From: Cordylochernes scorpioides
Lineage: Eukaryota > Arthropoda > Arachnida > Pseudoscorpiones > Chernetidae
Assembly: GCA_030710605.1 (NCBI GenBank)
Contig: CP092873.1
Location: 881,900-945,899, forward strand
DNA: 64,000 bases
Reading direction: 5' to 3'
In this document: positions 6,101 through 61,119 of the stretch, one piece after another
Layout: each line of letters starts with the position of its first letter
Numbering within the stretch: the stretch's first letter is position 1
Position numbers and translations under genes: made by a program
The notes under the pieces: model-generated
Told to the model about the DNA's origin: nothing
Databases searched by the model: none
The model's input: the letters and a program-made list of their open reading frames with translations, nothing else

Positions 6101-6604
6101 GTGAACAAAATTGCCTCTGTCTTAAAAAAAGCTGCTACATCAAAGACTTTCTACTTCCCTAAGTTTTGTCCATGTGTATGTTATCTATCGAAATATATTA
6201 GTAAAAATAAGTGTAAATCAATATTTACAATATACTAATGACTGATATTCAATATTTTTAGAATAAAAGATACTGTGAGTTGTAATTGGCGCACCAAACA
6301 TGATGTAGAAAATCAGCGTTATGATTCTCATATAGGGTGTAAAGGGCGTCTCTATACAGAGCAATGGAAACTCTGGGTTGACGCTAAGCTAGGTAGATTT
6401 ACAGGTCTAGCAGTCCATCACTGGATTTGATGTCCCAATCTGAGAAAGTTTTGAAATTTCTCGGAACTTTATCCCTAAGGAGTTTTCCCCGTTCATAAAA
6501 CCTGTAAGATACCGTAACGGGTGTACAGCCTCTCATCACCTTTTGACGCTTACACTTCTATCTATGTGAAAAAATAGTACAAATGTAATATTGTACTGGG
6601 ATAA
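6101..6604. other. array flank and unassigned spacer
   Basis: The first ~100 bases resemble the flank after arrays 1 and 3 (gtgtgaacaaaattgc, a purine run, then cctaagttttgtccat). The rest has no recognised feature. Confidence 0.4.
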
Positions 6605-6875
6605 GGTGCATATATTAAGAAAAAAGCATCTCCTTATGGATGCCTTAATGACCAAATATTTTTGGTCGTTGAGGTACAGCTTGCACCACGCTGATGAGGG
6701 CCAACAGCCCGAAACGCGTCCGTGGTTAGCTTTTCTTGATTAATCAAGAATGGGTATTTGGCCAATTCTGGAATAATTTAAAATCAACGAGAATAGTTTA
6801 TATTTATTCCGATAGATGGCGCAAGCCATCAGCAACTTTCAGTTGCACGATAAGGAGATGCCTTTTTCTTAACTT
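6605..6875 (+). mobile_element. family A short element with inverted ends and internal hammerhead
   Basis: The ends are inverted copies of one another: 'aagaaaaaagcatctcctta' at the left and 'taaggagatgcctttttctt' at the right. Between them lie a palindromic 'cttgattaatcaag' segment, a hammerhead ribozyme motif on the plus strand (6686-6725) and 'gatagatggcgcaagccatc' near the right end. No protein is encoded. Related copies occur at 21050-21330, 24225-24415, 24770-25330, 27890-28450, 30120-30310 and 49290-49815. It is a non-autonomous element; whether it moves as DNA or RNA cannot be decided from sequence alone. Confidence 0.75.
6686..6725 (+). ncRNA. type I hammerhead ribozyme motif (family A, intact core)
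   Basis: Reading 5' to 3': stem I strand ccacg, box ctgatga (consensus CUGANGA), stem II gggc with loop caaca and gccc, then gaa, minimal stem III acgcgt, cleavage base c (GUC triplet, cleavage after 6720), stem I strand cgtgg. Stem I pairs perfectly over 5 bp and continues after an internal loop with agc (6678-6680) against gct (6729-6731). All core bases required by the hammerhead family are present. Stem III has only about two pairs, as in some retroelement hammerheads, so cleavage might be stronger in dimeric RNA. Activity is inferred. Confidence 0.85.
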
Positions 6876-6984
6876 CTATTCATGTAAATTTATTAATCAA
6901 TTATGAATGTTTGTATAGTAGAAATCTAAATTAAATTCGATATGATAAAGAGAGATATAGAGAGAATCTCGAATTTATATAAAA

Positions 6985-7445: not shown

Positions 7446-7483
7446 AGGTTGATTTAAAAGTAGAAATATATTTTAGGCTTTAA

Positions 7484-7605
7484 AATAAAAACATAAAGCC
7501 TCCAGGGAAAAGTTTCTTTTAAAAATATATTTTATGAAATAAGATAAAAAATAATTTTAAAAAGAAACTTTTCCCTGGAGGCTTTATGTTTTTATTTTAA
7601 TATTA
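7484..7605. repeat. fold-back inverted repeat
   Basis: 'aaaacataaagcctccaggg' plus 'aaaagtttctttt' is repeated in inverse at 7558-7600, separated by about 35 AT-rich bases. Part of the arm (the caggctttat/ccctggagg phrase) also occurs near 50160. No coding content. Confidence 0.85.
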
Positions 7606-16747: not shown

Positions 16748-19624
16748 ATGTATATTAAAATTATTCAACAAAATACCAGAAAAAGCAAAAATTGCATAAG
16801 TGAGCTTTGTGCATCTGATGAAATTAGAAATGCAGATATATTAATGATACAAGAACCTTATATAATCAAAGAGGAAGTAATATTTCCGGGACCTTGTACA
16901 AAATATCAATTGATGAACAGTCCCAATATAAATACGGCAATAATTGTAAGAAATAGCAGCCTAAAAATTCAATTAAGTACAGAATTCACTAACTCATTCG
17001 CTACAACTATAACCATACAAACAAAAAGTAAGAAAATATATCTTTCGAACATTTATATACATCCGAATTCAATGAAAAATGAGCACGAGGAGTTTATGAG
17101 GAGGTTAATTAACACAAACTTACATATACCGGTGATAATCTGCGGCGATTTCAATGCCAGAGCTCCGTTATGGTATGACATCAGGAAAAATTATAATGGA
17201 CACAGACTGATCCCTATCATAGATGAAATAAACTTAATCATCCATAATAATAAAACTTTCACGTGTCGTGAAGCAAGTGTGATTGATCTCACACTAACGA
17301 ATAAACAGGCAATTGCGGCGATCAGAAATTGGAAGACACAGCAGATATCGCAAATTTCAGATCATGTAGCTATATCTTTTGAACTACATACAAACGAACA
17401 ATTTAGTTCAGAAAAATATTATTCCACTTGGAAATTTAATGAGAAAAGTGCGAACTGGTTAGGTTTTAGTCAGAGAATTAACAGAACTGAACGAGAAAAA
17501 ATTGAAAACTTATTAGATATAGTGGATACACCAGAAATGATCGATCAAACAGTAAAAGAACTTACGAACATACTGATTGAGGCAGCATATAATTCACTTA
17601 AAGTAAATAATAATATGACAACAAAAAATAATGTTGGTAATAAGTGGTGGAATAAGAATTTACAGCTTCTAAAGGATCACTGTCATTATCTTAGAAACTG
17701 TTACTATAGAAACAAAAATTGCCCTAATCATATTAAACAATACTATAAAATCGTACGAAATAAGTATTTACGGGAAATAGAAAAAGCTAGGAAAGCATCC
17801 TGGAGAATTTTTCTGGAGGAAAATAAATCGAACAACCCTTATGGAAACTTATATAAGGTGTACAAAAACATCAAAAGTGGATCTAATCGGAAGAGAAATA
17901 TGCAAATTTTGGAGGGTAATACTGACATGGAATGTTTGCAGAAGGGTGAGGAATTATTAAACAACTTATTTCCAGATGATAAATGTGAAGAAGATACAAA
18001 CACCCATAAAAGTATAAGAAATTATAATTTAAAATTACTCAATAAAGAAAAACCGATGGTTATGATTACTGAAGTTAACGACTTAATTGACAAATTAAAT
18101 CCAAAGAAATCTCCCGGAATAGACAACATCTCTAACAACATGATAAGGCACACTAAGCAATTTATTGCTCCTATATTGGTGAAACTATTTCAAAAATGTT
18201 TAGACATACAATACTATCCTGCTGAATGGAAAAGAGCAGAGGCAATAATTATTCCTAAACCTGGAAAAACAGATTTTAATAACTACAAAAATTATAGACC
18301 TTTATGTCTTAATTCCAACATTTCTAAAATATTTGAAAAAATAATTAATAATAGAATAATAAAATATTATGAAGATTTTAATTTACTAAGTGATCGACAA
18401 CATGGCTTTAGAAGATCGAAATCTACTATTACTGCACTAACTGAAATAATAAAAATTGCGTTAGAACATAAAACAAGAGAATATGCAGCAATAATTGCAG
18501 TGGATATTAGTGCAGCGTTTGATAATGCATGGTGGCCGGCCTTGATGAAAAGACTAGATGAAGATGGTGTGCAGGCTTCAATGATAAAACTTCTACAATC
18601 ATACTTTGATAATAGAAGAATAAGATTTAGACATTCCTCAACTGAAATTAATAAGAAACTAAGTAAAGGATGTCCACAGGGAGGACCACTGTCTCCCACA
18701 TTATGGAATATTCTTATTAATGAAATACTGAATAATAATCTGGATGATAACTGTGAAACAATAGGATATGCAGATGATATTACGCTAATATGTTGGAATA
18801 AAACTCCTGAACAACTAAGAAAGACAATAGATGAGGTATTAAGAAAAATCAATGAATGGTGTGAAAGTCGTAAATTAAAATTGTCAGATGAAAAAACAAA
18901 AATATTATATTTATATAAATGCAATAGCGATATAATAGTCTCAGGTAGCAAGTTAATTAAACCGGTTGAAGAACTTAAGATCCTAGGAGTGACTATTAAA
19001 AATCACCGAGTCAGAAGCAAACTGGACTTTACGCCTCACGTTAATGAAACGATCATAAAAGTAACTAGAGCTAGTGGATACCTATTTGGCCTGACAAAGA
19101 AAGCATGGGGTCTAGACTTTAGACGAAGACTGATACTGTATAAAGCATTATATCGAAGTACAATTACATACGGTTATCCAATATGGTATCCATTCATAAA
19201 AAAAAAGTCTAAGGACAAACTGAATTCTCTTCAATATAATATTTTAAAACATTGTATACAAGCCTACAGTACAACATCATCGGATTGTACACACATACTT
19301 GCACAAGTCCCCAAACTTACTGAATACATTGAATCTAACATGCTGAAAACCGAAATAAATTACAATCGATTTGACTCTTCAAGTAGGAATATAATTTCTA
19401 ATTATATAAGGGAAAAATTGCAGAAATACTATGAGAAGACTAACACCATTTTCAAGTCCTTCTTTACTGATTCCCAAATACCCAAATATGTCAAGCCAAA
19501 TTTTTACAACGTTCAATTTTTACTGGACACGGTAACTTTAGATCATATTTGTACAAGATCAGAAAGACGGATTCGCCTAAATGCTCATGTGGCGCAGAAG
19601 AAGAAAATCCTGTACATATTCTAA
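16748..19624 (+). CDS. R1-clade-like LINE ORF2: endonuclease and reverse transcriptase
   Basis: The 958-codon frame encodes an apurinic-type endonuclease followed by reverse transcriptase, the retrotransposition machinery of a non-LTR element. Endonuclease signatures include QEPY near residue 35, GDFNA at 133-137 and SDH at 204-206. The RT region has the 'AAFDNAWWPALM' block typical of the R1/LOA group, GCPQGGPLSPTLWN, and the catalytic YADD at 674-677. After about residue 925 the frame goes out of register: the conserved 'TGHGNFRSYLYKIRK' and a C-x-C-x8-H-x4-C knuckle continue in another frame to 19758. The switch maps to the T5 run at 19517-19521, consistent with loss of one T. No ORF1 is present upstream, so the copy is 5'-truncated. 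Family assignment is from remembered motifs. Confidence 0.9.
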   Translation: MYIKIIQQNTRKSKNCISELCASDEIRNADILMIQEPYIIKEEVIFPGPCTKYQLMNSPNINTAIIVRNSSLKIQLSTEFTNSFATTITIQTKSKKIYLSNIYIHPNSMKNEHEEFMRRLINTNLHIPVIICGDFNARAPLWYDIRKNYNGHRLIPIIDEINLIIHNNKTFTCREASVIDLTLTNKQAIAAIRNWKTQQISQISDHVAISFELHTNEQFSSEKYYSTWKFNEKSANWLGFSQRINRTEREKIENLLDIVDTPEMIDQTVKELTNILIEAAYNSLKVNNNMTTKNNVGNKWWNKNLQLLKDHCHYLRNCYYRNKNCPNHIKQYYKIVRNKYLREIEKARKASWRIFLEENKSNNPYGNLYKVYKNIKSGSNRKRNMQILEGNTDMECLQKGEELLNNLFPDDKCEEDTNTHKSIRNYNLKLLNKEKPMVMITEVNDLIDKLNPKKSPGIDNISNNMIRHTKQFIAPILVKLFQKCLDIQYYPAEWKRAEAIIIPKPGKTDFNNYKNYRPLCLNSNISKIFEKIINNRIIKYYEDFNLLSDRQHGFRRSKSTITALTEIIKIALEHKTREYAAIIAVDISAAFDNAWWPALMKRLDEDGVQASMIKLLQSYFDNRRIRFRHSSTEINKKLSKGCPQGGPLSPTLWNILINEILNNNLDDNCETIGYADDITLICWNKTPEQLRKTIDEVLRKINEWCESRKLKLSDEKTKILYLYKCNSDIIVSGSKLIKPVEELKILGVTIKNHRVRSKLDFTPHVNETIIKVTRASGYLFGLTKKAWGLDFRRRLILYKALYRSTITYGYPIWYPFIKKKSKDKLNSLQYNILKHCIQAYSTTSSDCTHILAQVPKLTEYIESNMLKTEINYNRFDSSSRNIISNYIREKLQKYYEKTNTIFKSFFTDSQIPKYVKPNFYNVQFLLDTVTLDHICTRSERRIRLNAHVAQKKKILYIF

Positions 19625-21049: not shown

Positions 21050-21330
21050 TTCTGACCGCCAAATAGACATTTTAGATGCCAGAGCGTCATCTAGTGGAAG
21101 AAATAGCAATTAAACGTTGATTTTGTTTGTTACATAATATTTAGCCAACCTATTTTCTTGATAAATCTAGAAAGGTCAACCACGTACACATTTCTGCCTT
21201 TTGTATCTTGTCAGTGTGAGGCAGACTGTACCTCTACGACCAGAATTTTGGTCCAAGCGGCTTCTCGAATAATCAAGAATTGCGTATTTAAGGCCAAATA
21301 TTTGCGTAAATACGCTAACATGTGAAAAAG
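21050..21330 (-). mobile_element. degraded family A element
   Basis: Recognised by 'gcgtcatctagtggaagaaa', 'tttcttgataaatctagaaa' and 'tacctctacgaccagaattt', all in family A order. The ribozyme region (about 21180-21235) is too altered to form a hammerhead. The CTCF-like site at 21084-21097 has one mismatch (gac instead of ggc). Confidence 0.6.
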
Positions 21331-24520: not shown

Positions 24521-24769
24521 ATTACTTGTATATATTATTAAATTACCTTTTCTATTTATCAATATTCATATAAAGGTGTTAATATCATTTTAAAGTTTAA
24601 GAGAAAATTGCTATTAGAAATAAGAGGAGAAGGCGAGTGTTATGAAAGTTTTTTATTTGGAATACAAATTAAAAAAAAAATAACAATAAACTTTTTCAAT
24701 AGAAAGACAATTTAAACTTTTCCCAATGTTAAACATTCTTACGCAATTCTGGCCTTAACTACCCGTTTC

Positions 24770-25330
24770 ATGATTTTTCAGGATGCCTGAATGACCCGTT
24801 TTTTTGGTCGTTGAGGTACAGCTTGTACCACTGACGAGGGCCAACAGCTCGAAACGCGTACGTCTTCTTCTTTCTTATCTCCACACTTGGTGAAGTAGAA
24901 TGCGTCTGCCTTCGTCATTAAGACTGGGAGCACTACTCAGTGGCAGGCCGACTTAGCTCCAAAAAAAAATGGCCGCCTCTGACATGAGAAACAGACGCCA
25001 TGTGCAGCCGCTCCTAACATGGAGTACAAACGCTGATCATCCTGTATCCCTGGATCAGGAGACCTAACAGGGTACTATCAGCCGCGCCAGCTGAGCCAAG
25101 GTTTTTTAGTGAGCTTGTTATTGCTCCCCCTCCTCCTTTTTCATCCGGGCTTGGGACGGGCAAAGGCGGAGTTACGCGTACGTAATTACCCTTTCTTGAT
25201 TAATCAAGAATAGGTATTTGGCCAATTCTGGAATAATTAAAAATGAACGAATAGTTGATATTTATTCCTAAAGATAGCGAAAGCCATCAGCAACTTTCAT
25301 TTGCACGATAAGGAGATGATTTTATTTTCC
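24770..25330 (+). mobile_element. family A element interrupted by SINE-3
   Basis: The left part (24770-24863, 'ggtcgttgaggtacagcttg') and right part (25174-25330, 'cttgattaatcaagaatagg', 'gcacgataaggagatg') make one family A element when the SINE at 24864-25173 is taken out. The hammerhead region reads ctgacga, gggc-caaca-gctc, gaa, acgcgt, a; its stem I has lost two bases (cca instead of ccacg), so pairing there is poor. Confidence 0.8.
24864..25173 (+). mobile_element. SINE-3 copy, 310 bp, 10-bp target duplication
   Basis: Flanked by identical acgcgtacgt at 24854-24863 and 25174-25183, the signature of a target-primed insertion. Starts cttcttctttcttatctc and ends 'ttgggacgggcaaaggcgga' plus gtt. 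It is very similar to the copy at 60759-61070. No clear tRNA head is visible, so its promoter type is unknown. Confidence 0.9.
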
Positions 25331-27440: not shown

Positions 27441-27527
27441 TCCCTCGAGCCGGATTTGAACCAGCGACCTAAGGATCACCGTTGTAACATCTACAGTCCT
27501 CAGCTCTGCCAACTGAGCTATCGAGGG
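27441..27527 (-). tRNA. tRNA-Tyr (GTA) with 14-nt intron
   Basis: On the minus strand: acceptor ccctcga pairs with tcgaggg, discriminator A. D-arm gctc-agttggcaga-gc, anticodon stem gagga with tcctt, anticodon GTA (complement of 27492-27494), T-arm gctgg-ttcaaat-ccggc. An intron of 14 bases (27477-27490) sits just 3' of the anticodon loop purine, where eukaryotic tRNA-Tyr genes normally carry it. A run of eight T follows the 3' end on this strand (complement of 27432-27439), a good RNA polymerase III terminator. It looks functional. Confidence 0.93.
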
Positions 27528-39232: not shown

Positions 39233-40593
39233 AACAATAAATAGTTATTTAATTTTATAGTCCAGTTTTGTATTAAGATTATCTTCACTATTATGATCAT
39301 TTAAATACAAATTATAAAATTTGTAAAATGTTATTAATTTGTAGATAGAGAGAGAAAAAAAAAAAATCCTTTACTTCTATTACATCCTCAAGTTAATTAT
39401 ATATTTATAATTAATAACAATAAAAAAAATTAACAAAGTAACGTCTATTACATCGGCTTTTACACGTCATTCAGACATACTCTAATCCTATATATAGAAT
39501 AATCGAAGAGATAATATATATAATAGTTAGAAAAAAGAGAGAAAGACAGAACCATGCACTTTTAATCAAACTAATAATAAGGAAAAAAAAAAAAAAAAAG
39601 AGTTTTATAAAGAAGGTAGATAAGATTGTTAGTATATATATATATATTTTTTTATGATTTTATATTTTATCCTTTTTTTTTTTTTTTTTTAGAAAGATTT
39701 TTAAAGGTTTTTTTATTTTATAATATGATTATAAATAGTTGTATTTAGTAATATATCTATAGTATGAATTAACATTTGTTATAAGTTTGGATATTATGTT
39801 TTGAAACCCTAATGGTAGACCAGACATACACAAAAAACTTTAAATTGAAATAAATTGGAAAAAGAGATCTGCTGGAACGGGGATCATCAGATAAAATTCC
39901 AGCGACATTTCAACCCCATGTCGCTGGAATTTTATCTGATGATCCCCGTTCCAGCAGATCTCTTTTTCCAATTTATTTCAATTTAAAGTTTTTTGTGTAT
40001 GTCTGGTCTACCATTAGGGTTTCAAAACATAATATCCAAACTTATAACAAATGTTAATTCATACTATAGATATATTACTAAATACAACTATTTATAATCA
40101 TATTATAAAATAAAAAAACCTTTAAAAATCTTTCTAAAAAAAAAAAAAAAAAAAGGATAAAATATAAAATCATAAAAAAAAATATATATATATACTAACA
40201 ATCTTATCTACCTTCTTTATAAAACTCTTTTTTTTTTTTTTTCCTTATTATTAGTTTGATTAAAAGTGCATGGTTCTGTCTTTCTCTCTTTTTTCTAACT
40301 ATTATATATATTATCTCTTCGATTATTCTATATATAGGATTAGAGTATGTCTGAATGACGTGTAAAAGCCGATGTAATAGACGTTACTTTGTTAATTTTT
40401 TTTATTGTTATTAATTATAAATATATAATTAACTTGAGGATGTAATAGAAGTAAAGGATTTTTTTTTTTCTCTCTCTATCTACAAATTAATAACATTTTA
40501 CAAATTTTATAATTTGTATTTAAATGATCATAATAGTGAAGATAATCTTAATACAAAACTGGACTATAAAATTAAATAACTATTTATTGTTAT
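39233..40593. repeat. giant palindrome, ~676-bp arms
   Basis: Left arm 39233-39908 and right arm 39918-40593 are inverted copies separated by the 9-base loop ttcaacccc. Centre-proximal sequence is 'cagataaaattccagcgaca' and its complement. The arms agree base for base wherever I compared them, except in homopolymer lengths (17 A versus 15 T near 39590/40240; 18 T versus 19 A near 39680/40150; 7 T versus 9 A near 39650/40180). No ORF. Either a very recent inverted duplication or fold-back element, or an assembly/sequencing inversion artefact. Confidence 0.93.
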
Positions 40594-44170: not shown

Positions 44171-44518
44171 TCTTTTCATTTTATTATTGGATTCTCAAGT
44201 TTCTGGGTATTTCGTCGCTTTAACAGGAGTACAAAATGAACAATAATAAACTCCGTACAGAGTTGACAAAGAAGACTTACAGAATGGTGTCGTGTTAGCC
44301 CGGTCTAAGAAATGAAAATGTGCTCAGCGAACAGAATTTCTTCTATACATTAGCTCGACTGTATTTTACAAGCTCTGGGATCTTCCTATAGCCGGGGTGT
44401 TCTTTATTGGGTTGAAGGTAGGAATTTCGAAATCCCGTTATGTATAATGATATGTTAACCAGATTGTTACATTCTATTTCTCATATCGTGAAAACTTTTA
44501 TATAATATAAATATTTTA
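44171..44518. other. unassigned spacer
   Basis: Contains 'gatcttcctatagccggggt' and 'gaatggtgtcgtgttagccc', both repeated loosely near 50230-50345, so an additional old dispersed repeat is likely here. Confidence 0.4.
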
Positions 44519-45915
44519 AAAATAAGGCTTATTTTGGATTTAAATAAGATTATTTATTTACCAATATTTCGATGGATCAATCTTCCATCTTCTTCGAGGT
44601 GTTTTGCAGTGAAGCACGCAGCAGGTCGCGCGCCCCAGGTGAGCCACTGGACGTCTTCTAAGCTTATTGGGCGATAAACAATCTAATATATACATTCTAA
44701 ACAGAGTAAATATAATCAAAATAAAAAGGTGATATATGTAAATGACTATTGAAAATTAAGAGATATCGAATTAATTAATGAATAAGTGATATATGTAAAT
44801 GACTAATGAAAATTAAGAAATATCGAATTAATTAAACAAATAAAATATCATAAAAATTGAAGTAACTGTGAAATAAATATACAAATAATAGTAATAGATA
44901 TCCGATTAAAAATGGAATAAAATAACCATGTAAATAGCATGATCATCTAAGAGGTTCTAAATTGAGTATATACATCTGGCAAGTCAATCTTTCTATTGAT
45001 ACTATTTTTATTTTCTAATGAGCTCCAGCTTTCTAAAAATAAACGGCAATGCTTTTCTTTGATGTTTTGATGTATTATAGATGTGTGATCGAAGTCTGGA
45101 GTGTGACTATTGTTGAATGCATGATCTACCAGTAGAGATGTCGGGTTATGGTGCTTTAGTGCGGATTTGTGTTGGTTAATTCTTTCAGATAAAGGTTTGC
45201 TGGTTTCTCCTATGTATATTGCCTGGCAGGATTTGCATGGTATTTTATAAACCACATTCGCTCTATCTTCTGGCTTGTAGATTTGTTTTGTATCAGGGTG
45301 ACGGAAGATGCTTCTTAAATTCTGGTTGGGTTGATATCTGGTTGTAATATTGTGTTTTTTTAAACTTCTGGCTATTCTTTCACAGCCATAGCTGTAAGGT
45401 AGGGAGCAAAACATGTTCGGGGTTGAGATCTGTCTATTGTTCGTGGATGGAATTTTTGGTGCATATAATTGCTTTTTGATGAATTCTTTAGGATAATTAT
45501 TGCTTTGAAGTTCTTGAAATAATCTAGCTCTTTCAATTTTTTCATCAGTTTTATCTGTAAAATGTGTAGTCAACCTCTTGGACAGTGTTTTGACCACCGC
45601 AACCTTATGACAGATAGGACCAAAAGAATTGAAGTTCAGGTAACTTCCTGTGTGGGTTGGTTTTCGATAAATTTTCGTTTCAATTTTGTTTTGATTTCTG
45701 GTCAGTTGTAAGTCCAAAAATGGTAGAGACCCATTTTCTTCTAATTCATAAGTGAATTTCAGAAAGGGTCTAAGACTATTAAGAAAATTTATAATTATGG
45801 AAACATCGACCTCTGTGATGCATAATACATCATCAATGTAGCGTTTCCACATTAAAATTTGTAGTTGTGTAGATTCAACGATTAACTTATCAATTTTATC
45901 CATGAAGACATTGGC
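44519..45915 (-). mobile_element. Penelope-like element, 5'-truncated, minus-strand copy
   Basis: Runs from the head-to-head junction (about 45915) down to the tail 'atttcgatggatcaatcttc' and the terminal 'aaggcttattttggattt'. Includes the C-terminal part of the polyprotein (44947-45915) and about 430 bases of 3' UTR. The UTR contains two near-identical ~65-base segments with 'gtgatatatgtaaatgacta' and 'atatcgaattaatta'. Confidence 0.88.
44947..45915 (-). CDS. Penelope-like element RT end plus GIY-YIG endonuclease, 5' partial
   Basis: The open frame spans 318 codons from the ATG at 45903 and is also open for four more codons to the junction, so this ATG is probably internal. N-terminal residues about 1-150 are the end of the reverse transcriptase: WKRYIDDVLCI (the YxDD catalytic motif, about 19-29), then ENGSLPFLDLQL and 'IYRKPTHTGSYLNFNS', a Penelope hallmark. 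A GIY-YIG endonuclease follows (about 220-300): 'VVYKIPCKSCQAIYIGETSK' with the conserved Arg in SERINQH and Glu-containing 'LFLESWSSLENK'. Normal stop at 44947. Most of the RT is absent. The protein would act at the retrotransposition target in the nucleus. Confidence 0.92.
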   Translation of the reverse strand, partial: ANVFMDKIDKLIVESTQLQILMWKRYIDDVLCITEVDVSIIINFLNSLRPFLKFTYELEENGSLPFLDLQLTRNQNKIETKIYRKPTHTGSYLNFNSFGPICHKVAVVKTLSKRLTTHFTDKTDEKIERARLFQELQSNNYPKEFIKKQLYAPKIPSTNNRQISTPNMFCSLPYSYGCERIARSLKKHNITTRYQPNQNLRSIFRHPDTKQIYKPEDRANVVYKIPCKSCQAIYIGETSKPLSERINQHKSALKHHNPTSLLVDHAFNNSHTPDFDHTSIIHQNIKEKHCRLFLESWSSLENKNSINRKIDLPDVYTQFRTS

Positions 45916-46533
45916 TAATTTTACAGATAAAACTGATGAAAAAATTGAAAGAGCTAGATTATTTCAAGATTTTCAAAGCAATAATTATCCTAAAGAATTA
46001 ATCAAAAAGCAATTATATGCACCAAAAATTCCATCCACGAACAATAGACAGATCTCAACCCCAACATGTTTTGCTCCCTACCTTACAGCTATGGCTGTGA
46101 AAGAATAGCCAGAAGTTTAAAAAAACACAATATTACAACCAGATATCAACCCAACCAGAATTTAAGAAGCATCTTCCGTCACCCTGATACAAAACAAATC
46201 TACAAGCCAGAAGATAGAGCGAATGTGGTTTATAAAATACCATGCAAATCCTGCCAGGCAATATACATAGGAGAAACCAGCAAACCTTTATCTGAAAGAA
46301 TTAACCAACACAAATCCGCACTAAAGCACCATAACCCGACATCTCTACTGGTAGATCATGCATTCAACAATAGTCACACTCCAGACTTCGATCACACATC
46401 TATAATACATCAAAACATCAAAGAAAAGCATTGCCGTTTATTTTTAGAAAGCTGGAGCTCATTAGAAAATAAAAATAGTATCAATAGAAAGATTGACTTG
46501 CCAGATGTATATACTCAATTTAGAACCTCTTAG
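45916..46533 (+). pseudogene. Penelope-like endonuclease copy with 1-bp deletion
   Basis: The first part is open to about 46062, then loses one base: 'ctcaaccccaacatg' here versus 'ctcaaccccgaacatg' in the sister copy. The frame terminates shortly afterwards, while the GIY-YIG part remains open in another frame (46066-46533). The GIY-YIG sequence is identical to the sister copy in its conserved residues. Confidence 0.9.
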
Positions 46534-46975
46534 ATGATCACGCTATTTACATGGTTATTTTATTCCATTTTTAATCGGATATCTATTACTATTATTTGTA
46601 TATTTATTTCACAGTTACTTCAATTTTTATGATATTTTATTTGTTTAATTAATTCGATATTTCTTAATTTTCATTAGTCATTTACATATATCACTTATTC
46701 ATTAATTAATTCGATATCTCTTAATTTTCAATAGTCATTTACATATATCACTTTTTTATTTTGATTATATTTACTCTGTTTAGAATGTATATATTAGATT
46801 GTTTATCGCCCAATAAGCTTAGAAGACGTCCAGTGGCTCACCTGGGGCGCGCGACCTGCTGCGTGCTTCACTGCAAAACACCTCGAAGAAGATGGAAGAT
46901 TGATCCATCGAAATATTGGTAAATAAATAATCTTATTTAAATCCAAAATAAGCCTTATTTTTAAAATATAAACAT
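45916..46975 (+). mobile_element. Penelope-like element, second copy in head-to-head orientation
   Basis: Begins ttttacagataaaactgatg, at a point inside the coding region further downstream than the first copy, and runs to 'ttggtaaataaataatctta' and 'ccaaaataagccttattt'. Highly similar to the complement of 44519-45575. Confidence 0.88.
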
Positions 46976-47820: not shown

Positions 47821-48135
47821 AATACAATATAATGCGGCATATGATTGTAGAATGACATTTGAAAATTATCCCGCATGTGTTTCTTTTCAACGAAAAATCT
47901 AAATTTATTTTAAGGAGAAATAACGATTATTTCTAACCTTAGGGATGAGGGATGAAAGGATGAATTGTGAAGATAATGATAATAATTATTCTTGATCACC
48001 CTTCACAATTCATCCTTTCATACTTCATCCCTAAGGTTAGAAATAATCGTTATTTCTCCTTAAAATAAATTTCGATTTTTCGTTTCAAAAGAAACACATG
48101 CGGGATAATTTTCAAATGTCGTTTTACAATTACTT
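47820..48135. mobile_element. family F fold-back
   Basis: Arms 47826-47970 and about 48000-48128 are inverted copies: 'gacatttgaaaattatcccg', 'gaaataacgattatttctaa' and 'gaaaggatgaattgtgaag'. Loop is 'ataatgataataattattct'. Confidence 0.88.
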
Positions 48136-49288: not shown

Positions 49289-49640
49289 TTTATTAAAAAT
49301 AAAAAAGGCATCTCCTGACCACGAGCACATGTGCTTTTTTAGATGGCAGAGCGCCATCTAGTGGAGTAAAAATAAACGTTTATTTAGCTTGCTCCGTGAT
49401 ATTTGGCCAACCCAATTTCTTGATAAATCAAGAAAAGCCATCCACGAACGCGTTTCGCGCTGTTGGCGCTCGTCAGCGTGGCGAAAGCTGTAACTACTGC
49501 GACCAAAAAATATTTTTGGTCCCAATGGCTTCCTGAGAAATCAGAAAATGGGTATTTAAGGCCAAATTTGCGTAAAGACGCTTAACACATGAAAAAACAA
49601 TATAAAAAATAAAAGATAAGTGGGCAGGTGTTGATATTAA
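49289..49640 (-). mobile_element. family A2 element with intact hammerhead and CTCF-type motif
   Basis: Starts 'aaaaaggcatctcctgacca' and 'gcacatgtgctttttt'. Carries a CTCF-consensus site (49351-49364, minus), the palindromic 'cttgataaatcaagaa' segment, and a minus-strand hammerhead at 49442-49481. Ends near 'aagtgggcaggtgttgatat'. Confidence 0.8.
49442..49481 (-). ncRNA. type I hammerhead ribozyme motif (family A2, intact)
   Basis: Minus strand: ccacg, ctgacga, stem II gcgc-caaca-gcgc, gaa, acgcgt, t (GUU triplet), cgtgg. Stem I pairs perfectly and extends beyond an internal loop (tttcg opposite atg) with agc against gct. Compared with 6686-6725, stem II has two compensating changes that keep pairing, which is evidence that the RNA fold was maintained. 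Confidence 0.85.
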
Positions 49641-49644
49641 AAAT

Positions 49645-49815
49645 AAAAAAGGCATCTCCTGACCACGAGCACATGTGATTTATCAAGAAATTGGGTTGAC
49701 CAAATATCACGGAGCAAGCTAAATAAACGTTTAGTTTATTTTTACTCCACTAGATGGCGCTCTGCCATCTAAAAAAGCACATGTGCTCGTGGTCAGGAGA
49801 TGCCTTTTTTATTTT
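49645..49815. mobile_element. family A2 short fold-back with CTCF-type motif
   Basis: Left arm 'aaaggcatctcctgaccacg' plus agcacatgtg and right arm 'gcacatgtgctcgtggtcag' plus gagatgcctttt. Between them are the inverse of the 49375-49425 segment and a perfect ccactagatggcgc at 49747-49760. The ribozyme region is deleted. Confidence 0.85.
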
Positions 49816-50495
49816 TAATATCAACACCTGACCCACTTATCTTTTATTTTTTTCTATATATATCAGTTGTATTTTGAGATCTGAACAATTTCTAAATACT
49901 TTCTTTGTTAAAATACATTTGTTCTATGATTACTCGTTTTATTTTATTTCGACTTAGAGAGCGCTATATCCCCCTACGGACACTTGCACTACAAATGTAA
50001 ACAAAACATTGATATAAAAGAAAGATATTTGAAATATGTACAAGAATTAGTATGCAAGTTAGTTAGATGAAAAGAGAAAAAATATCAACACAATTGAAAT
50101 ATGTACAAAGGGCGTTAATGCCCAAAAGCTAGAGAATAAATATGTTTTTGAAAAGATACCTTTCCCTGGAGGCCTTATATATTTTACTGGATGTAGTACA
50201 TAAATAAAACACTTCAGAAGTGACAAGGAATGAATGGCGTCGTGTTGTCCGGACCCAAGCAATAACATTCTCAACATGGCGTTTGACACCGTATTCCGAC
50301 TGTCTCTAACAAGCTCCTGGATCTTTATATAGCCGGGGTGTTTTTTTATTGACGGACCTTTGAAGTCCCACTATGTAAGGTGATATGGTGTCAGGTTTTC
50401 ACGTCTATTTCTGTGGTGGTCAGTCTTTATTTAACTTCCTTATCTTAATTTTACTTTATATCGAATCTTAATATTCACACTAATCTTTTATAATA
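49816..50495. other. unassigned spacer
   Basis: Contains 'acctttccctggaggcctta' near 50160, related to the fold-back at 7484. No gene. Confidence 0.4.
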
Positions 50496-58515: not shown

Positions 58516-60348
58516 ATGAAAATTCTTTGTTTATCTATTTCAATCACTAACCCAAAATTCTCCGTGTTGTTTTTGAGTTGCATTCCTCTTATATTTGCAA
58601 GGCAAGTCTTGGAGAACGATATTCCATCCCGGCACACCCTGAATACTTTTTTCAGGAAACGAATTCAAAAATCTGGAGAACATGGACAGACCAAACTATC
58701 CATACATACCAAGACACATCCGTTCGACATACGCTCCAACAACGGAATTCACATCTCTAACACCAATCATAAATATCATTCACCTCGACGGAAGAAAAAT
58801 ATCAAATTCAATTTCAAACAAGAATTCATAAATCGCACATCCATACTGAAGAGAACAAATGATTTTGATTATTCTTACTTGAAAACAGAACGTATCATTG
58901 ATAGTTCCAAATATTTATCACTTCATTCCAAGTTATCTGCGTCAAAAGAAGATTTATCATCACCAAATAATAAGTTAAATAATTTGAATTTTGACGTAAC
59001 ACCTAGAAATAAGTTTAAAATGCCGGTAAATATTTCGAATAGGGTTGCTAGACAAATGCGAATTAAAGTAAACCAAATAATAGTTGATGAAGACCAGAAT
59101 TTGACAATTACCTGTCCAACAAATAAGAATCAAAAAGTATTTTGGTATTTTGGAGATTCTCGTCTTAAATTTAACCAAACCAGGATGAGACGACGGAAGA
59201 ATGGGGATTTAAGAATTTTCAACGTAAAGCAATCAGACTCTGGGGTATATTTCTGCAAGACTAATTTGAGAATTGACCTGAAACATATGGAATTCGTTAG
59301 AAGTGTAGCTGTCAAAAATAAAGAACCTATTATAATAGGTATTGGTGAAACCTACCGTATTCCATGTAAATCTACTTTATTTCCAGTAATTTACAAATCT
59401 TGGGGATTTTCACTCAGATGGTATCACGACAACGTTGAAGTTCGATCCAATTCGGATGCTTCTAAACAGGACTATGTAATTAAGAATGCCAGAAGATCAG
59501 ATTCTGGAACTTGGAGATGTGTTTCTATTTGCCCTGCCGTAAATCTCCGTCAAATCACTTGCCATACCTGGGTCAAAGTGCAACCTAGGAAGACTCCCAG
59601 TTACATGGATAAAGTAAAGAAAATGGCTAAAAATTCTAAGGATAAATTGGAAGAAATGGAGCTACGGGATATATTACTGATTATCCTGGTTATTTCAGTA
59701 TTCATTCTAGCATTCATAATTCTTTTCAGGACAGCTAGAAGGAAGCATCGCAAAAAACACAAAAAAGAAAAAATTCCGCCTTGGTTCGACTTGGGGAAAA
59801 CATCTGATCCCATGAATCTAGGTTTTACAACAGCTACCAGTTCCAAACCAATATCGCAACCTATGAAAAATAACCATATTGATAAAAAAGAAACTGAAAA
59901 TGAAGAAAATGAGGATAAAGATCACGATAAAAAAGATGTTGTTGCTAAAAGTCACGGGAGCAAATTACCTGAAAACAAAGATAAGGGAAAGAAATTATCG
60001 AAAAAGGATAAAAAACACAAGGAAAATAAAAAAGATAAAGAACATAAAGATAAAAAGAAAAAGAACCGTAAAAAAGAGAAAAAGAAAAAAGAAGATAAAA
60101 AATCTGATAAAACAACAGATATATCAAAACCTCAAACTTCAAAGCCACAAGAAACAACTTCCGAAATTTCAAAAACAGAAGCATCGATTCTTACACCAAA
60201 AACTCCAAACCAGAAAACCGAAGAAAAGACCAAAGACGTAAGCAATAAAGGTCAAGAATCGAAGAAAATCGATATGAAAGGAGACGCAATATTGAATGGA
60301 AAAACACAAAACAAAGAAAAAAAAACGAAAATTCTTCAAAAGTTTTAA
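58516..60348 (+). CDS. single-pass membrane protein with two Ig domains and Lys-rich tail
   Basis: The only convincing host gene, 610 codons, intronless over this span. Residues 1-29 look like a signal peptide (hydrophobic core FSVLFLSCIPLIFA). A basic linker follows to about 185. Ig domain 1 has Cys200, a Trp near 211 and DSGVYFC ending at Cys247. Ig domain 2 has Cys284, SLRWYH and DSGTWRC ending at Cys335. A membrane helix spans about 385-406 (LLIILVISVFILAFIILF). The cytoplasmic tail is extremely Lys/Glu-rich (about 435-555). It should sit in the plasma membrane and act in adhesion or recognition. The two-Ig plus one-span plan recalls FAM187-type proteins, but I am not sure. The frame ends in an A-rich tract where a second frame takes over (60296-60550). 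Confidence 0.85.
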   Translation: MKILCLSISITNPKFSVLFLSCIPLIFARQVLENDIPSRHTLNTFFRKRIQKSGEHGQTKLSIHTKTHPFDIRSNNGIHISNTNHKYHSPRRKKNIKFNFKQEFINRTSILKRTNDFDYSYLKTERIIDSSKYLSLHSKLSASKEDLSSPNNKLNNLNFDVTPRNKFKMPVNISNRVARQMRIKVNQIIVDEDQNLTITCPTNKNQKVFWYFGDSRLKFNQTRMRRRKNGDLRIFNVKQSDSGVYFCKTNLRIDLKHMEFVRSVAVKNKEPIIIGIGETYRIPCKSTLFPVIYKSWGFSLRWYHDNVEVRSNSDASKQDYVIKNARRSDSGTWRCVSICPAVNLRQITCHTWVKVQPRKTPSYMDKVKKMAKNSKDKLEEMELRDILLIILVISVFILAFIILFRTARRKHRKKHKKEKIPPWFDLGKTSDPMNLGFTTATSSKPISQPMKNNHIDKKETENEENEDKDHDKKDVVAKSHGSKLPENKDKGKKLSKKDKKHKENKKDKEHKDKKKKNRKKEKKKKEDKKSDKTTDISKPQTSKPQETTSEISKTEASILTPKTPNQKTEEKTKDVSNKGQESKKIDMKGDAILNGKTQNKEKKTKILQKF

Positions 60349-60758: not shown

Positions 60759-61070
60759 TTTCTTCTTCTTTCTTATCTTGACACTGGGTGAAGTAGAATG
60801 CGTCTGCCTTTGTCATTAAGACTGGGAGCACTACTCAGTGGCAGGCCGACTTAGCTCCAAAAGAAATGGCCGCCTCTGACATGAGGAACAGACTCCATGT
60901 GCAGCCGCTCCTAACATGGAATACAAACGCTGCTCATCCTGTATTCCTAGATCAGGAGCCCTCACAGGGTACTATCAGCCGGGCCAGCTGAACCCAGGTT
61001 TTTTAGTGAGCTTGTTACTGCTCCCGCTCCTCCTTTTTCATCCGGGCTTGGGACCGGCAAAGGCGTAGTT
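60759..61070 (+). mobile_element. SINE-3 copy, 312 bp, 11-bp target duplication
   Basis: Flanked by atgatattcat at 60748-60758 and 61071-61081. Begins tttcttcttctttcttatct and ends 'gaccggcaaaggcgtagtt'. With the copy at 24864 this fixes both element boundaries. Confidence 0.92.
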
Positions 61071-61119
61071 ATGATATTCATGGTGTGTAATAGTTAACAC
61101 GACTGAGTTTAATACAATT

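Follow-up and report, generated by a model that had tools for sequence, protein, structure and literature searches.

A probable non-LTR retrozyme of Cordylochernes scorpioides with head-to-head inserts that end like those of Penelope-like elements

Results

Retroelements in the window

The window, the whole 64,000-nucleotide stretch of contig CP092873.1 analysed here, carries an insert of a hammerhead-bearing repeat, an insert of a second subfamily of that repeat (subfamily B), older copies, a Penelope-like element (PLE) and two LINE ORFs (Table 1). The first insert, at about 6568-6871, consists of two head-to-head arms of a 339-nt unit, whose sequence was taken from a tandem array on contig C7. 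The BLAST match of the sense arm extends to 6875 through its overlap with the target duplication. By script, the exact stretch shared by the two flanking duplications is 8 nt; in a segmental twin of the locus about 80 kb away (L033), the target duplication is exact over 14/14 positions. The initial annotation had described an element of about 260 bp with inverted ends, which was wrong: the 23 nt that had been read as an inverted end form the inner portion of an antisense arm, which reaches outward to about 6564-6568.

Table 1. Retroelement features of the window.
Feature	Position	Strand	Basis and remarks
Antisense arm	6568..6637	-	Unit 285 to 212; tail (site 2) end; BLAST match from 6564
Sense arm	6638..6871	+	Unit ~1 to ~234-237; short (site 1) end; mapped on tandem unit
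Left target-site duplication, 14 nt	6554..6567	.	Read by eye
Right target-site duplication	6872..6885	.	12/14 identical to left copy by eye
Candidate type I hammerhead ribozyme	6678..6731	+	Direct reading; HH9 26.5 bits, threshold 52; covariation
Older retrozyme copy	21070..21329	-	71% identical to young unit over 21084-21329
Older retrozyme pieces	24718-24863 and 25174-25318	+	88-90% identical to young unit
Resident PLE, head-to-head	44511..46969	.	ORFs, arm comparison, end reading
PLE arms	44511-45563 (antisense), 45918-46969 (sense)		Tail beyond 46969
PLE GIY-YIG ORFs	44947-45963, 46048-46533	-, +	Pfam GIY-YIG in both
Subfamily B insert, head-to-head	49291..49863	.	Left end short, right end with tail
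B hammerhead in B insert	about 49434-49490	-	
Two LINE ORFs			

A candidate type I hammerhead ribozyme

The core was read directly as CCACG (6686-6690), CTGATGA (6691-6697) and GGGC-CAACA-GCCC (6698-6710), followed by GAA (6711-6713), ACGCGT (6714-6719), C (6720) and CGTGG (6721-6725). Outer stem I joins AGCT at 6678-6681 to AGCT at 6728-6731 across an internal loop. These letters and coordinates agree with the initial annotation. The core CUGANGA / GAA / NUH, the three stems and the open stem I are those of a type I hammerhead, and the predicted cut lies between 6720 and 6721, after GUC.

The proposal that this is a type I hammerhead with a very short stem III is upheld by the sequence and by covariation in stems I and II. 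The covariance-model search that the initial annotation had proposed as a check, a miss being half of its condition for refutation, gave no match above the curated threshold: the best Rfam model, Hammerhead_HH9, scored 26.5 bits against a gathering score of 52 (E value 0.024 across the window and 0.00019 across 501 bases). The bare core pattern is by itself weak evidence and could be chance, with 0.25 occurrences expected per shuffled window and at least one found in 22 of 100 shuffles. It is copy number and covariation that lift the hammerhead above chance.

In its own genome (2.62 Gb, 24 contigs) the element has at least 64 matches among those listed (1669 first-look candidates, 40 scored), and these copy numbers are lower bounds. 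By a pattern test, the core survives in 64 of the 70 stretches for which query A is the best match and in all six for which query B is. The covariation score, calculated on 17 aligned stretches from the two subfamilies and older copies, was 0.256, a value reached by none of 500 shuffles (mean 0.143); slid structures scored at most 0.084. Within the same alignment 88.1% of cells are paired and five pairs change on both sides, the latter count being a weaker measure that 48 of 500 shuffles reached. In the clearest cases, subfamilies A and B differ by G-C to C-G in stem II and by U-A to C-G in outer stem I. In our view, covariation and copy number outweigh the missed Rfam threshold, and we file the element as a type I hammerhead on its core and covariation, with the reservation that it falls below that curated threshold. 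The hammerhead pattern had no exact match in viral contigs.

Folded alone with the hammerhead forced, the stretch reaches -15.2 kcal/mol compared to a minimum of -18.2 kcal/mol. The 339-nt unit folded as a circle gives -114.3 kcal/mol (z -8.2, 100 shuffles), and forcing the hammerhead raises this by 3.0 to -111.3 kcal/mol; in neither case is the hammerhead the minimum-energy fold. The stem III stretch ACGCGU (6714-6719), kept in most rows of the alignment, is a self-complementary six-letter palindrome whose pairing in a monomer is limited to one or two pairs around a tiny loop, against six between two copies. Since it is self-complementary and too short for stability alone, the hammerheads probably cut as pairs, and the stem III sequence thereby suggests cleavage by paired ribozymes. 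Self-processing of the element's transcripts is, at this stage, a prediction from sequence.

Retrozyme inserts have two outer end sites

Units occur in tandem at a spacing of 335-340 bp. To describe insert ends we used 33 chains from 24 sources with at least 90% identity over at least 120 bp, leaving out weaker and shorter chains. The segmental twins L033 and L038 were excluded from the chain, flank, core-pattern, arm and shared-variant counts; the chain and shared-variant counts do include L044's second insert, which is probably a local duplicate. Loci L001-L020, which overlap the window or L033-L047, were not recounted. As the loci are best matches, the sample favours young copies.

Simple two-armed chains accounted for 21 of the 33, all of them in -+ orientation (head-to-head, with 3' ends outward); ten chains were single-armed. 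The remaining two were compound (-+- in L047 and -+-+ in L066, the latter running off the locus edge), and each holds a + to - step. In 17 of the 21 two-armed chains, the ends are split between unit 229-239 and unit 276-291; in none of the 21 do both fall at the same site, and four have an end elsewhere (L039, L043, the second in L044 and the first in L046). Counted singly, 48 of 55 outward 3' ends of arms fall in these two intervals (25 at unit 229-239, 23 at 276-291), the other seven lying at unit 18 (a locus edge), 38 (twice), 134, 199, 213 and 266. The 11 outward 5' ends are scattered. There are thus two end sites, near unit 238 and near unit 285, about 47 nt apart. The end intervals were chosen after inspection of the data, so any probability attached to them is illustrative.

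The same orientation is seen in the wider set of matches. Neighbours within 600 bp were -+ in eight cases among 64 subfamily A matches and in nine among 54 subfamily B matches; neither subfamily had a +- pair, and the other neighbours were on the same strand. All three B inserts with both ends readable by eye (49291-49863 in the window, one in L036 and one in L039) have one short and one tail end. Where both flanks of B inserts could be read, exact flanking repeats measured just 5-9 nt.

Exact flanking repeats of at least 12 nt border 13 of the 17 inserts that have one end at each site, compared to 17 of 272 mismatched flank pairs. Seven of the 13 long duplications are of fairly complex sequence and 12-14 nt in length (L035, L037, L046, L047, L050, L052 and L070), and six are AT-rich simple sequence of uncertain length (L040, L044, L045, L048, L068 and L069). 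By eye, the retrozyme inserts at 760-950 of L066 and 1000-1101 of L068 lie near apparent antisense ends of another PLE subfamily, which suggests that the retrozyme and that subfamily share AT-rich targets.

The resident PLE has the same arrangement and a LINE does not

The two arms of the PLE in the window are 99.4% identical over 1053 positions, and its protein matches proteins recorded under the name Cordylochernes scorpioides. We scored 119 copies of this element out of 53652 first-look candidates, and found 15 neighbour pairs within 15 kb, of which 12 were (-)(+), three (--) and none (+)(-). Ends were examined for six of the 12 (-)(+) pairs and for the window's own pair, and all seven have one short and one tail end, with the tail end about 30-35 nt beyond the short end site. 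Exact repeats flanking these PLEs are 12-21 nt long and consist of AT repeats in four of seven; the mismatched-flank comparison covers the retrozyme inserts only. The control was the LINE at 16748-19624, for which 150 copies were scored and none had a neighbour within 15 kb.

Two start sites with a tail on one arm, as in PLE-type integration, are therefore found in both elements (17/21 for the retrozyme, 7/7 for the PLE). A recognition sequence common to the retrozyme and the resident PLE did not emerge from a comparison of their end regions: there was no detectable likeness there, with 642 of 1000 shuffles scoring as high. Because only the end regions were compared and these are unlike, our claim is that the retrozyme works like a PLE, not that it is derived from one. 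A hammerhead scan of resident PLE stretches (L065 and L058) gave no match at E<=1​0, and the PLE tandem junction holds no CTGANGA. That junction, in L065 (C24:150151650-150152620), has the tail region leading into the next ORF start and resembles one described for rotifer PLEs (excerpts of PMC3846280).

Arm lengths and shared variants suggest one RNA species per insert

Among 56 arms of at least 50 nt, 31 are longer than one unit, with lengths of up to 2755 nt, and 45 run across the site of ribozyme cleavage. A single arm 5' end falls at unit 81-85, and the others are spread over the unit. The template was therefore intact at the cut site, as either a circle or an uncut multimer. We also considered arm 5' ends as fossils of ribozyme cleavage and rejected this, as the fullest 8-nt bin (five ends, near 73-82) holds no more than random.

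Comparisons between the arms of an insert found a minor variant recurring in 356 of 616 cases (0.58), and those within an arm in 308 of 477 (0.65), as opposed to 3560 of 30170 (0.12) between inserts. Without the large L040 array, the counts were 164/364 across arms, 104/198 within an arm and 2880/22366 between inserts. Such shared private variants indicate that both arms came from one RNA species or were homogenised later, and arm-to-arm gene conversion could be an alternative source. A circular template would be the simpler reading and fits the circles published for retrozymes.

Discussion

Judged by its sequence, the element is a member of the metazoan non-LTR retrozyme family: its 339-nt tandem unit falls in the 150-450 bp range, it bears a type I hammerhead, it is without an LTR and its target duplications exceed 4 bp. 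We consider it probable that this retrozyme is inserted into the genome by Penelope-like machinery, and the earlier view of an RNA-mobilised element of a Penelope-linked kind is to that extent supported. On a DNA target, the purified PLE protein of the anole cuts both strands and extends them, with reverse transcription beginning at two adjacent internal RNA sites that bound the genomic 'tail'; in vitro, the start site was no different between strands (PMC11167929). In rotifer PLEs, according to excerpts of PMC3846280, the tail is on one inverted repeat, head-to-head is the commonest arrangement, and the inverted arrangement is ascribed to self-priming on antisense RNA.

Tentatively, and with our doubts slightly outweighing our confidence, we propose a two-ended rolling-circle retrotransposition in which PLE protein cuts both target strands, their 3' ends prime on one hammerhead-made circle, at two fixed sites about 47 nt apart, and copying continues until the cDNAs meet. 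In the more general scheme of insertion by PLE machinery, which we hold to be probable, tandem arrays would be transcribed, and the transcript, as motif and covariation suggest, would be cut after GUC by hammerheads that probably act as pairs. The resulting 339-nt monomers would be closed into circles, by analogy with what has been published on other retrozymes. The duplications of about 12-14 nt seen at insert ends would result from a staggered cut in AT-rich DNA by an enzyme presumed to be of PLE type, and both free target strands would then prime reverse transcription on the sense RNA, one near unit 238 and the other near unit 285. Several rounds of a presumably circular unit could be copied, in keeping with the observed tandem arms of up to eight units. 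Finally, two antisense cDNAs would meet at scattered points, giving the head-to-head structure with outward 3' ends that the inserts have (one of 19 junctions could not be placed).

Three other explanations of the inserts fare worse. A MITE-type DNA transposon with a TTAA duplication and short terminal inverted repeats was suggested by TTAA on either side of the 23-nt inverted ends in the window, but the inverted stretch runs on outward as a longer antisense arm, the arms differ in length and hold several units, and the duplications outside them measure 12-14 nt. We give it practically no credence and dropped it after arm mapping, in which no TTAA duplication was seen to flank symmetrical terminal inverted repeats directly. 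If the repeat were a satellite whose hammerhead is a fossil and which spread only by unequal exchange and segmental duplication, its tandem spacing would be explained, as would L033 and L038, the segmental twins of the window and of L037; however, copies are dispersed over many contigs with duplications of their own and fixed ends. These independent insertions rule out satellite-only spread, which we regard as very improbable. LINE twin priming makes inversions, and with two LINE ORFs in the window a LINE might have moved the retrozyme and produced the inverted copies, the likeness to PLEs being accidental. The rule of one end per site and the spacing of about 47 nt fit PLE tails rather than LINE ends, the 150 scored copies of the LINE tested include no paired copies, and the insert ends that were read carry no poly(A) tract, all of which makes this account improbable.

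A different question is whether PLE machinery might use a linear, uncut multimer as template, the hammerhead being dispensable for insertion. The 45 of 56 arms that cross the cut site and the single 5' end at 81-85 are as expected of such a template, and anole PLE RNA with hammerhead mutations inserts normally in vitro (PMC11167929). Against it, a covarying hammerhead is kept in two subfamilies, circles are abundant for published retrozymes (excerpts of PMC7229834), and variants common to arms and turns fit one circle, though they would also fit a uniform array. We find a linear template rather unlikely, and less so than any of the three explanations above.

As described in excerpts of Cervera and de la Pena 2020 (PMC7229834), metazoan non-LTR retrozymes have, like the present element, a type I hammerhead in low-GC tandem repeats of 150-450 bp, no LTR, duplications of more than 4 bp and a co-existing PLE. 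A difference is that most inserts of the present element are head-to-head and have two fixed outer ends; the word 'inverted' is absent from the main text of that paper. Circles and cleavage have been demonstrated for the retrozymes of that study and are predicted for ours. Plant LTR retrozymes are likewise non-autonomous hammerhead elements thought to move via circular RNA, but have type III ribozymes, LTRs and shorter duplications (excerpts of PMC7229834). The hammerhead satellites of newts and salamanders share a unit of about 330 bp and a very short stem III (excerpts of PMC7229834). Dimeric action, suspected here, is known in those satellites, and paired-hammerhead cleavage is reported for amphibian retrozymes (excerpts of PMC7229834); the perfect six-letter palindrome of stem III sets our element apart from them. 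With Penelope/Poseidon-type PLEs it shares head-to-head arms, a tail at one 3' end, partial tandems, short target duplications and AT-rich targets (PMC11167929; excerpts of PMC3846280). Unlike PLEs, the retrozyme has no reported ORF, and its end sequences are unlike those of the resident PLE.

According to excerpts of a 2020 review, retrozyme repeats have no conserved motif that reveals their autonomous partner (PMC7761336), and PLEs have been put forward as strong candidates because of shared hammerheads, tandem copies and co-existence (excerpts of PMC7229834). A PLE partnership is thus already suspected in print, and the end rule adds structural evidence to it; we found no two-site end signature in a retrozyme in the openly licensed PMC literature searched. 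Insert ends are a more specific marker of the partner, as two start sites, one per target strand, are common to the retrozyme and a PLE of the same genome. Any animal genome that contains retrozymes can serve to check the rule, which also bears on the poorly known integration of PLEs. If true, two-ended rolling-circle retrotransposition could be how animal retrozymes in general enter genomes and come to lie in head-to-head tandem arrays.

Other features of the window

Two stretches resembling Twister-P1, at 25124-25178 (-) and 61021-61075 (-), each reach 41 bits where the model's gathering score is 67.2. In 29 of the 38 further copies that were scored (from 749 candidates), the match starts at query 28-32, adjoining what we take to be the twister U^A cut at query 30/31, and the copies compared have roughly 290-370 nt in common. 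A search for a twister on the opposite strand of the 339-nt unit gave no match at E<=1 in 16 loci. The idea of two ribozymes of opposite polarity in one unit was rejected, the twister-like stretches belonging to another repeat. RTE elements with a truncated twister at their 5' end are mentioned, as work in preparation, in excerpts of PMC7761336.

An open frame of 610 aa with Ig domains lies at 58516-60348 (+); none of 7997 scored candidates passed as a relative. Long inverted repeats at 7480-7599, 39836-39990 and 47932-48041 resemble plant or animal miRNA models on both strands, below gathering scores, and are probably palindromic repeats. A tRNA gene at 27441-27527 (-) scores 56.1, compared to a gathering score of 29, and has an extra stretch in the anticodon region that is possibly an intron.
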